Origin: Acidimicrobiia bacterium
Lineage (GTDB): Bacteria; Acidobacteriota; Vicinamibacteria; Vicinamibacterales; UBA2999
NCBI GenBank assembly: GCA_016871275.1
Contig: VFZG01000008.1
Location: 62,001-126,000 of the forward strand
Direction of reading: 5' to 3'
Length of the DNA: 64,000 nt
Shown: one piece after another, positions 13,040 through 64,000 of the stretch
How the letters are laid out: each line of letters begins with the position of its first letter
How positions within the stretch are numbered: position 1 is the first letter of the stretch
The notes under the pieces: model-generated
What the model was told of the DNA's origin: nothing
Databases searched by the model: none
The model's input: only the letters and a program-made list of their open reading frames with translations
Position numbers and translations under genes: made by a program

Positions 13040-15514
13040 ATGGCTCTACCAGCGCGACGGCCTCACGAGCACAAGCAGGTCGCGCTCCACAACGCGCTCA
13101 CGGTCTTGAACTCGGGGGCAGAGCTCGACCGCCCCGACACCCCGGACGAGGTGGTCACCGCCGTCCGGCGCCTGCCGGCGGTTGAAGCGGCCTACGCGCC
13201 GTTCCCCGACGACATCGATCCTCGTCTGAAGGCCGCGTTCGAGGCGCGCGGCGTGCATCAGCTCTATTCGCACCAGGCGGAAGCGTGTGCGCACGTTGCC
13301 GCCGGACGCCAGGTCGTTGTCACGACCCCGACAGCATCAGGCAAGACGCTCTGCTACAACCTGCCGGTGCTCGATCGCATTCTGAAGAAGCCGTCGTCGC
13401 GCGCGCTGTACCTGTTTCCCACCAAGGCGCTGGCGCAGGATCAAATGGCGGAGCTGCACCAGCTGGCCGCCGCTCTCAAAGACGCTGGCATTGGGGAGGT
13501 CGGCGGCGAGGGATTGGGCATCCACACCTACGACGGCGATACGCCGCAGGATGCCAGGCGGACGATTCGCACCCGGGCACACATCGTGCTGAGCAATCCC
13601 GACATGGTGCACTCCGGGATCCTCCCGCACCATCCGCGGTGGGCGAAGCTCTTCGAGAACCTCGACTTCATCGTCATCGACGAACTGCACGCCTATCGCG
13701 GCGTGTTCGGCAGCCACTTGACGAACGTGCTGCGGCGGCTGCAGCGCATCTGCCGGCACTACGGATCGAATCCGCAGTTCATCTGCTCGTCGGCGACCAT
13801 CGCCAACCCTGCCGAGCTCGCCGAGCGCCTGGCCGAGAAGCCGTTCGCGCTGGTGGAGAAGAGCGGCGCGCCGCGCGGCGAGAAGTTCTTCGTGTTCGTG
13901 AATCCGCCGGTGGTGAATCGCGAACTGGGCATCCGCCGCTCGTACATTGCGGAGTCCCGCCGCGTCGCGGGCGAGTTCCTGCGCCAGAACCTGCAAGTCA
14001 TCGTGTTTGCGCAGAGCCGGCTGTCGACCGAGATCCTCACCACGTACTTGAAGGAAGACTTCGAGGATGTGCCGGGCATGCCCGAGCGCATTCGCGGCTA
14101 CCGCGGCGGCTACCTGCCGCTGCGGCGGCGGGAGATCGAGAAAGGGCTGCGCGCCGGCCAGGTGCGCGGCGTGGTATCCACCAACGCCCTCGAGCTGGGC
14201 ATCGACATTGGTGCGCTCGATGTCTGCGTGATGGCCGGCTATCCCGGCACGATTGCCTCCACCTGGCAGCGGGCCGGCCGCGCCGGCCGGCGGCGGGGGC
14301 AGTCGGCGGCGGTGATGGTCGCCTCGAGCGCGCCGATCGACCAGTTCGTGGCGCGTCATCCGTCGTTCTTCTTCGACGCCTCGCCGGAGCACGCGCTGGT
14401 GAATCCCGACAACCTGCACATCCTGGTCGATCACGTGAAGTGCGCGGCGTTCGAGCTGCCGTTCACCACCGAAGAGCACTATGGCCAGGTGAATGTGCAG
14501 GAGGTGTTGGGCATTCTGCAGGAATCGGGGCTGGTGCATCGCTCGGGGGGTGAAGACGCGGCAGGGCAGTGGCACTGGACCAGCGAGTCGTACCCGGCCA
14601 ACGCGGTCAGCCTGCGGTCGGTGTCGTCCGACAATTTCGTGATCACCGATCACACCCACGGCTCGAAGGTGATTGGCGAGACGGATTTCACCAGCGCCTT
14701 GTCGACGCTGCATCCCAAGGCGATTTACATGGTCGAGGGCAGGATCTTCCAGGTTGAAGAGCTCGACTTCGTGGGCCGCAAGGCGCACGTGCGCGAAGTG
14801 GACTGCGACTACTACACGACCGCGATCACCTACACGAAGGTGACGATCCTCGATCGCTTCGCGGAGGATGCGCCGAAGGTCGCGCTGCACGGCGAAGTGC
14901 GCGTGGTCTCGCGCGTCGTCGGGTTCAAGAAGATTCGTTTCCAGACCAATGAGAATGTGGGCTCCGGCGAGCTCGACCTGCCGGAGCAGCAGATGCACAC
15001 CACCGCCTACTGGCTGGAGCTGCCGCTGCCGTTGATGAACGCGCTGCCGTACGCGTCCGACGATCGCCGCGACGGCGTCATCGGCCTGGCGTTCGCGATG
15101 AAACAGGTGGCGCAGCTGCTGCTGATGTGCGACGCGAGGGATATTGGGCTGTCCGTGAATACCGACGACCCCGACGGATCCGCAACCGCCCCGTCTCGCC
15201 GCAGCGCCGACGGCGCGACGGCGGAAACGCCACGCATTTTCATCTACGACGCCTATCCCGGCGGCATTGGCTTCAGCGCGCCGCTATGGGGCATGCAGCA
15301 GGAACTGCTCGAGAAGACCAGCGCGTTGATCGCCGGCTGTGATTGCGACAGCGGCTGCCCGATGTGCGTGGGACCGGTCGGTGAAACGGGCCCGCTCGCA
15401 AAGCAGGTCGCGCTGCGGATGCTCCAACACTTACAGGTGTCGACTCTTGACGGTTCGTCAGAGGATTTGTCGACCGTCGCGCGAAGCGCGAAGGTGGAAG
15501 AAGTGCCTTTCTAG
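13040..15514 (+). CDS. mrfA: DEXH-box helicase with C-terminal DUF1998 zinc domain (MrfA/YprA)
   Basis: An 824-residue superfamily 2 helicase of the YprA/Hrq1 group. Bacillus MrfA works with MrfB in repair of mitomycin C damage. Walker A is TPTASGKTL (Lys102), box II is DELH in IVIDELHAYRG near 214, and the group signature PDMVHSGILPHHPRW precedes it. Motif VI is WQRAGRAGRR. The C-terminal domain ends with AGCDCDSGCPMCVGP, the four-cysteine site expected for DUF1998. ATG 13040. The next gene starts immediately after the stop codon and encodes the MrfB-type exonuclease, which makes the assignment stronger than homology alone. Confidence 0.9.
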   Translation: MALPARRPHEHKQVALHNALTVLNSGAELDRPDTPDEVVTAVRRLPAVEAAYAPFPDDIDPRLKAAFEARGVHQLYSHQAEACAHVAAGRQVVVTTPTASGKTLCYNLPVLDRILKKPSSRALYLFPTKALAQDQMAELHQLAAALKDAGIGEVGGEGLGIHTYDGDTPQDARRTIRTRAHIVLSNPDMVHSGILPHHPRWAKLFENLDFIVIDELHAYRGVFGSHLTNVLRRLQRICRHYGSNPQFICSSATIANPAELAERLAEKPFALVEKSGAPRGEKFFVFVNPPVVNRELGIRRSYIAESRRVAGEFLRQNLQVIVFAQSRLSTEILTTYLKEDFEDVPGMPERIRGYRGGYLPLRRREIEKGLRAGQVRGVVSTNALELGIDIGALDVCVMAGYPGTIASTWQRAGRAGRRRGQSAAVMVASSAPIDQFVARHPSFFFDASPEHALVNPDNLHILVDHVKCAAFELPFTTEEHYGQVNVQEVLGILQESGLVHRSGGEDAAGQWHWTSESYPANAVSLRSVSSDNFVITDHTHGSKVIGETDFTSALSTLHPKAIYMVEGRIFQVEELDFVGRKAHVREVDCDYYTTAITYTKVTILDRFAEDAPKVALHGEVRVVSRVVGFKKIRFQTNENVGSGELDLPEQQMHTTAYWLELPLPLMNALPYASDDRRDGVIGLAFAMKQVAQLLLMCDARDIGLSVNTDDPDGSATAPSRRSADGATAETPRIFIYDAYPGGIGFSAPLWGMQQELLEKTSALIAGCDCDSGCPMCVGPVGETGPLAKQVALRMLQHLQVSTLDGSSEDLSTVARSAKVEEVPF

Positions 15515-47767: not shown

Positions 47768-48994
47768 ATGCCTTGGTACAAAGAGGTGTCCCGCCAGCAG
47801 TGGAAGACTTTTCTCACCACCTATGCGGCGTGGACCCTCGACGCCTTCGACTTCACCATCATCACGTTCGTCCTGACCGACATTCGCCGCAGCTTCGAGG
47901 TGAACCTCGCGCTGGCCGGAGCGTTGGCCACGGTGACGCTGCTGTTCCGCATGGTCGGCGGCATTGGCGCCGGCACGCTCGCCGACAAATACGGACGCAA
48001 GGGGCCGATCCTGTTTTCGATCGCGTGGTTTACCGGCTTTGCGTTCCTGAGCGGCCTGTCGACCAGCTACGTGATGCTGTTCGCCTGCCGCGGTCTGTTC
48101 GGCATTGGCATGGGCGGCATGTGGGCCGCGGGCATGCCGCTGGCCCTCGAGCAATGGCCGGCGAAACATCGAGGCATCGCCTCCGGCATCCTGCAGGGCG
48201 GCTACTCAACTGGCTTCCTGCTGTCGTCGCTGGTCTATCAGCTGGGCTATCCGCTGGTCAGCGACAACCCCGATTGGGCCTGGCGGTTGATGCTGTGGGC
48301 CGGCGTGCTGCCGGCGATTGTCATCTTCTACCTGATGCTGCGCGTGAGCGAGAGCCCGTTATGGCTCGAACAGCAGCGCGAGCGCGCCGGCCGGCCGGTG
48401 CGATTGTCCTTATCGCGGCTGTTCGATGCGGACCTTCGCTGGGTGACCATTCATACCTCCATCCTGATGGGCGCGTTCGTGTGGATGTACCAGTCGACGA
48501 CCATCTGGTACCCGACGCTGCTGGCGAACCTCAAACAGCAGCCGCTCGCGTTCCTGTTGCTGCTCAATGCCAGCGGCATGATTGGCTCGATCGTATTCGG
48601 CGCGCTGTCGGAGCGGTGGGGCGGGCGCCGTGGCGCCGCAACGCTCGGCTTGATCGCCGGCGTGCTGTCGGCGCCGGTCTACCTGTTTTCCACGACCAGC
48701 GGCGGACTGCTGCTCGGTGCATGGTTGATTGGCTTCTGCGCATCTGGTGCGTGGGGCATTGTCCCCGGCTACCTGGCGGAGCGCTTTCCGACCGAAGTGC
48801 GCGGTGTCGGCACCGGGTTCTCGTATCACGTCGGGGTCGGCATTGGCGCGTTTGCGCCGTACCTGATCGGCGTGCTGACCGACGCCGGCAGTCAGCTTCA
48901 GACGGCGATGTTCTGGTGCGTGGTCTCTGGTGGCATTGGCGTGATCACATTCCTCTGGCTGGGCCCCGAGACCCGCGGCCGCGAGCTGCGCTAA
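47768..48994 (+). CDS. MFS transporter (sialate/lactate-type branch)
   Basis: A 408-residue 12-helix major facilitator. WTLDAFDFTIITFVLTDIRR in helix 1 carries the D-x-x-D pattern of the SHS/AAHS acid symporters. GGIGAGTLADKYGRKGPIL is the loop 2-3 motif (D-x-x-G-R-R/K). RGLFGIGMGGMWAAG and the later ERWGGRRGA repeat it in the second half. It probably imports an organic acid with protons. ATG 47768 lies 55 bases from the divergent acetamidase-like gene, so the two may be expressed from a shared region. Confidence 0.88.
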   Translation: MPWYKEVSRQQWKTFLTTYAAWTLDAFDFTIITFVLTDIRRSFEVNLALAGALATVTLLFRMVGGIGAGTLADKYGRKGPILFSIAWFTGFAFLSGLSTSYVMLFACRGLFGIGMGGMWAAGMPLALEQWPAKHRGIASGILQGGYSTGFLLSSLVYQLGYPLVSDNPDWAWRLMLWAGVLPAIVIFYLMLRVSESPLWLEQQRERAGRPVRLSLSRLFDADLRWVTIHTSILMGAFVWMYQSTTIWYPTLLANLKQQPLAFLLLLNASGMIGSIVFGALSERWGGRRGAATLGLIAGVLSAPVYLFSTTSGGLLLGAWLIGFCASGAWGIVPGYLAERFPTEVRGVGTGFSYHVGVGIGAFAPYLIGVLTDAGSQLQTAMFWCVVSGGIGVITFLWLGPETRGRELR

Positions 48995-62969: not shown

Positions 62970-63953
62970 TTACAACCGATCTGCCGGGCTCCTGACGCCG
63001 CGGCCACCGCGATTCAACACGTGCGTGTAGATCATGGTGGTGCTTACATCCGCATGGCCGAGCAGTTCCTGCACTGTCCGGATGTCGTAGCCGTCTTCCA
63101 GCAAGTGGGTCGCGAATGAATGGCGCAGCGTATGGCAACTGGCGCGCTTGGTGATGCCGCTGCGCCGCACCGCTGCTGAGAACGCGCGCTGGACGGCTGA
63201 TTCGTGGAGATGAAAGCGCGTCGGACGGCCCCATTGTGGATCTCGGCAGATGCGCCCGGCAGGAAAGACGAACTGCCATGGCCACGACGCGGCAGCATGG
63301 GGATCCTTGCGGTCGAACGCATCTGGCAGGACGACGTGACCGAATCCTGAGGCGAGATCCCGGCGATGGAGATCGCAGACGGTGTCGAGGTGTTTTCGCA
63401 GAAGGCCGGTCAGTGACCCGGGCATCATGGTCATGCGGTCTTTCCGACCCTTGCCTCGCCGCACGGTGATCTCCGCGCGTTCGAAATCGAGATCCTTGGC
63501 TCGCAGTGCCAGGCATTCGAGCAGGCGCATGCCGCTGCCATAGAGGAGTGACGCCACGAGGTGTGGGACACCGGAGAGCTCGCCGAGCACGGAGCGGACC
63601 TCGGTGCGAGTCAGCACGACCGGCAAGGAGGTGGACGGCCTGGGTTGTGGCAGTTCGAGGCGCTCGTGCAGTGGCTGGCGCAGAACGGCACGATAGAGGA
63701 AGAGCAGTGCGCACAACGCCTGATTCTGGGTCGACGCGCTGACCTGCCGGCGGTCGGCAAGATCGGCCAGGAAGGCGGTGACGTCCTGGCTACCGAGTTC
63801 GGAGGGGTGGCGTTTGCCGTGGTGGAGGATGAACCGGCGCGCCCAATGCGTGTAGGCATCTTCGGTTCGGCGGCTGAAATGCCGAAGCCTGCACGCCTGC
63901 CGGATCTGGTCGAGCAGTTTCGGTGAGTTGGGGGGCGACGAAGTGGCCGTCAT
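62970..63953 (-). CDS. intI: Integron integrase (tyrosine recombinase IntI)
   Basis: A 327-residue tyrosine recombinase. Catalytic residues are Arg143 ([12 protein letters not shown]), Lys171 region (GKGRKDR), His274 and Arg277 (CHTLRHSF), His300 and Tyr309 (STTMIYTH). The insertion specific to integron integrases is present at about 200-250: [34 protein letters not shown] and [13 protein letters not shown], which is absent from XerC/D. The C-terminal [14 protein letters not shown] is also typical. It would recombine attC sites of gene cassettes with attI. The gene points away from the window end, so attI and any cassettes lie to the right of 63953, mostly outside. Function is otherwise complete, with no frameshift. 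Confidence 0.93.
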
Positions 63954-64000
63954 GCTGCGATCAGAGCGAAATCGGTGCCATCGGCGATCGGGCCGAAATC
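63954..64000. other. Start of the expected attI/Pc region beside intI
   Basis: The 47 bases between the intI start and the window end hold no gene. In integrons the attI site and cassette promoter lie here, upstream of intI. I see no R-Y-Y-Y-A-A-C/G-T-T-R-R-R-Y core within these 47 bases, so a site, if present, extends beyond the window. Confidence 0.3.

Follow-up and report, generated by a model that had tools for sequence, protein, structure and literature searches.

Sedentary chromosomal integrons have been described in Vibrio, Xanthomonas and other bacteria, where the integrase gene intI is divergent from the cassettes, the attI site lies between, and the attC sites are of a matching type. 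In Vibrio, SOS control of intI by LexA has been established (PMC3108266). Inverted integrons are known in Treponema (Treponema denticola, PMC3607928), and inverted integrases have been described as a sub-clade (PMC8352920) and as a third group (PMC10500605). Outside the Proteobacteria, integrons are less explored. Acidobacteriota have been listed among the carriers (PMC8618304), and an acidobacterial attC group with a phylum-specific attC model has been defined (Ghaly et al., 2021, PMC8352920).

The stretch of DNA analysed here (the window, 64,000 bases, C8:62001-126000 of a contig that ends at 127181, 1,181 bases further on) holds what is very probably the integrase end of an acidobacterial sedentary chromosomal integron, the order probably being Vicinamibacterales, in the canonical divergent layout. 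It shares with the described sedentary systems the divergent IntI, the intervening attI, the matching-type attC, a low-GC foreign cassette and, elsewhere in the same genome, a toxin-antitoxin cassette, and it differs from those of Vibrio and Xanthomonas in its acidobacterial host, its order-specific IntI lineage and the opposite layout of most of its sister lineages. The inverted integrases of Treponema denticola and others offer a second comparison, as the window IntI is placed among inverted integrases on the tree, whereas its cassettes are found 5' of intI. The integron itself is of a known kind and ordinary; the flipping of intI and the shared operator treated below are leads. IntI, a tyrosine recombinase that acts on folded single-stranded attC hairpins, would insert circular cassettes by recombination between attC and attI, whose core lies 266 bases upstream of the intI start codon, and the cassettes would be excised again through attC recombination. 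Facing away from intI, they could be transcribed from a promoter located within the attI leader.

Table 1. Features of the integron and of the second array in the same genome. Positions without a contig name count from the first base of the window and are extended past its end as contig C8 position minus 62000.
Feature	Position	Strand	Details
intI, integron integrase	62970-63953	-	327 aa, complete with stop; TIGR02249, 2a3v, motifs
Intergenic intI-attI region, first 47 bases	63954..64000	.	continues to 64219 beyond the window end
Operator doublet (palindrome pair, candidate)	64024-64068		sequence outward from intI; 24-68 bases beyond the window end
attI core TACTA-G^TTAGCC	64219-64225		placed by comparison with relatives
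Cassette 1	64220-65094		875 bases; 250-aa ORF at 64245-64997
attC1	65031-65100		fold and leave-one-out covariance model
Two attC with RelE/NadS cassette between	C93:5027-5878		contig end, beside UbiX gene

The open reading frame at the right edge has been confirmed as a genuine full-length integron integrase. Its product matches the NCBIfam integron integrase model TIGR02249 with 425.6 bits (cut-off 265 bits) over model positions 1-315 of 315, and the domain profiles Phage_integrase and Phage_int_SAM_4 with 117.7 and 99 bits. A phmmer alignment with the IntI4 chain 2a3v, a solved structure, runs end to end (E 2e-79); the fold is thereby settled by sequence match. Residues 224-233 and 246-255 are aligned to the additional-domain region of 2a3v and form the IntI-specific insertion, and the catalytic motifs are all intact (RLLECLALR at 143-151, GKGRKDR at 167-173, further motifs at 273-285 and 298-312). 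Both the insertion and the full catalytic set had been recognised in an earlier sequence-only reading, which also had the 5' end of the gene facing the right edge, in agreement with the minus-strand frame. The enzyme is presumably active in recombination.

The same reading had considered it likely that attI and cassettes lay just outside the window edge and had proposed an extension beyond position 64000 with a covariance search for attC. Indeed, the next 1,181 bases contain the attI core, a cassette and its attC site (attC1), the latter 1,078 bases away from the start codon of intI, so that the integrase does not stand alone without attC sites within about 10 kb. Across relatives the attI core TACTAG^TTAGSC is kept, and the sequences diverge past the cassette junction. 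attC1 reads GGCTAAC AACGGGTT-G-CAGCCG A CGTTGC ... GCAACG CGGCTG AACCCG ACC GTTAGGC and folds as a canonical attC with R''/R' and L''/L' arms and an extrahelical G (-23.7 kcal/mol). The start of cassette 1 (TTAGCC) together with the preceding G is the exact complement of the R'' box GGCTAAC of its own attC, which fits the expectation for an excisable circle. The cassette has a GC content of 47%, compared with 65.5% for the window and 55.5% for the lowest equal-sized stretch within it, and its reading frame is bounded by the recombination sites and runs in the direction of attC. The encoded class I methyltransferase (250 aa) reached no equivalog among the family profiles and has no close relative in the viral contigs scanned; its best-covering plasmid relative is 27% identical. 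A scan for consensus promoters found none; near the spot where relatives carry one there is just a weak extended -10 (candidate Pc), and a cassette promoter would presumably lie in the attI leader. An Rfam search over 11 kb around intI gave no match above threshold.

For the attC family, 19 sites picked by pattern and folding (attC1 and 18 from related genomes) have been aligned. The alignment holds 24 shared pairs with 95.2% of cells paired, 13 of the pairs showing two-sided changes, and none of 500 shuffles came as high. A covariance model built without attC1 scores this site at 66.4 bits (E 7e-15). Inside the window the best covariance match reaches only 17.3 bits (E 0.26, at 47875), and a second covariance model gives no window match at E <= 1; two models thus agree, across the whole window, with the earlier statement that no attC is visible to the left of intI. 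That the platform is dead, with a lone or degenerate integrase and a chance inverted repeat past the edge, is very unlikely: the single attC and cassette before contig C8 ends, 81 bases past attC1, and the empty promoter scan would suit it, and against them stand the intact frame and catalytic motifs of intI, the fit of attC1 to a family model in whose training it had no part, the attI kept up to the exact cassette junction, and a cassette GC well outside the range of the window.

The host is an acidobacterium, probably of the order Vicinamibacterales, represented by a draft genome of 3.96 Mb in 124 contigs. Its closest named IntI (67%) is that of Acidobacteria bacterium RIFCSPLOWO2_02_FULL_67_21, to whose family the genome belongs, and it shares its order with acidobacterium gp6 AA50, so that the assignment outside the Proteobacteria made from the letters alone holds. 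Gp6 equates to the class Vicinamibacteria. Of the 162 genomes sampled in the order, 57, or about a third, match the window IntI at E <= 1e-60. The related genomes have been searched for a conserved position of the integron on the chromosome, and none was found; the relatives of the window's flanking genes do not stand beside the integrons there, and the locus is therefore not conserved. This would accord with a mobile integron, borne on a plasmid or transposon and recently arrived, rather than with a sedentary one, an origin rendered very improbable by the 127-kb contig, albeit one of a draft assembly, on which the genes near intI are ordinary metabolic ones (MFS transporter, ketopantoate reductase, FAA hydrolase domain), by an IntI less than 60% identical to each of the best 5000 plasmid records and 56% identical to IntI1, by its grouping with the IntI of its own order, and by an attC1 of the order's own type. 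The idea that an ordinary XerC/D-like tyrosine recombinase has been taken for IntI can be dismissed, as the weaker matches to the XerC and XerD models (145 and 136 bits) stay below half of their cut-offs with TIGR02249 far above its own, the insertion aligned with 2a3v is present, and attI and attC adjoin the gene.

Returning to the sedentary integron, a whole-genome scan with the first covariance model has found six attC sites above 40 bits, the next match scoring 20.9. Besides attC1 there are five sites of 40-55 bits, none of them in the model training: two on contig C93, one on C78 and two on C37. The cassette on C93 encodes a RelE-family toxin and a NadS-family antitoxin. A pair flanked by an attC site on either side in a genome of the same genus (G004) shows 91% and 98% identity to these proteins, and the pairs found elsewhere in the order show 65-78%. 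Consequently, there is direct evidence that cassettes are shared within this group. The DNA at the end of contig C8 has no convincing match to the other contigs of the assembly, which left C8 without a link to C93, C78 or C37; the C93 array presumably belongs to the integron of the window. The two sites on C37 are lone attC (L148:3169-3242 and 14458-14531), far apart, far from intI and amid TonB-dependent receptor-like genes, and that on C78 (L147:251-316) likewise stands alone and far from any intI. These lone sites may represent cassettes inserted at secondary sites.

Two further features extend beyond the ordinary integron. We consider evenly poised the combined proposal that intI has turned repeatedly beside a fixed attI, the window being a return to the canonical layout, and that intI may be under a paired-palindrome control coupling cassette recombination to a transformation or recombination regulon rather than to the presumed LexA box. 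The region upstream of intI contains two GCAGWWWCTGC palindromes whose centres are 34 bases apart. The same doublet precedes intI of a related genome (G008) and comM of the window genome; the controls in 31 genomes gave 0 matches. A near-equal doublet, 32 apart, precedes comM of another (G045); such doublets also precede unrelated genes in other genomes. The third exact doublet of the window genome is found at C22:4089-4133 (L219:1501-1545), about 340 bases before the gene of a small CPCC-motif protein. With up to one mismatch, the motif occurs in 14 of 22 comM, 16 of 40 intI and 6 of 25 recA upstream regions (shuffles 0.2, 0.65 and 0.25), counts that were made post hoc on related genomes. Genome-wide the motif is not enriched (27 sites vs 24 in the control), and single sites therefore mean little.

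As a LexA box, GCAGWWWCTGC has been rejected, since the host's own lexA lacks it and CTTGACTTTCGCTTG is found instead in 23 of 25 recA upstream regions. The latter, matched at 12 of 15 positions in the host's own lexA, is the stronger candidate for the order's LexA box; before intI it occurs in 3 of 40 regions against 1.6 in shuffled sequence, no clear excess over chance. Taken together, the data point to an intI regulator other than LexA, whose putative motif would be common to comM and some recA promoters. If intI does share its operator with comM, cassette capture would be tied to DNA uptake.

The second feature concerns the layout. In the window genome attI and attC are located 5' of intI, with none on the 3' side within the window. 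Most relatives in the order have attC on the 3' side and in the direction of intI, as in the closed genome G050 with ten attC on that side, and a minority have them on the 5' side. On the tree the window IntI falls into a supported clade of seven rows of canonical layout (98/93), nested in an order-specific clade of 27 rows (100/99) that holds 18 inverted rows. For 8 tree rows the layout was judged solely by where attI lies. Two more canonical rows, G110 and G115, form a pair nested within inverted ones, and the window IntI itself lies among inverted-layout IntI of acidobacterial, rokubacterial, planctomycete and krumholzibacterial origin. The AU test has rejected a single clade of all inverted rows (p-AU 0.0001) and, weakly, a single clade of the order's nine canonical rows (p 0.037).

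A further indication comes from attI itself. The sequence GCAGGTCCAATASTAGTTAGNC is common to the canonical pair G110 and G115 and to G118 and G120, in which attI lies on the 3' side, and the leader is similar across both layouts, which argues that attI and its leader stayed and intI turned. Most likely, then, the integron of the window descended from ancestors whose intI pointed toward attI, and it would be intI, not attI, that turned; the direction of this change depends on rooting a tree without Treponema sequences on its proteobacterial and cyanobacterial rows, and also on one moderately supported node (81/86). The comparison offers the lead that, in this order, intI has flipped its direction relative to attI more than once. 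With repeated turning, layout would not reliably identify an "inverted" integrase lineage, and if genuine flips have occurred more than once, the inverted integrase group would not stem from a single event. No report of a return from the inverted to the canonical layout has been found in the open-access papers searched. If the flips are real and recurrent, comparisons within the order could show how orientation affects integrase and cassette expression. Among the integrases with attC matches, the sites lie on one side only with a single exception, a weak attC-like match of 26 bits (L075:3940-4023), which is found on the unexpected strand, 5' of an integrase of Pseudomonas mangrovi.
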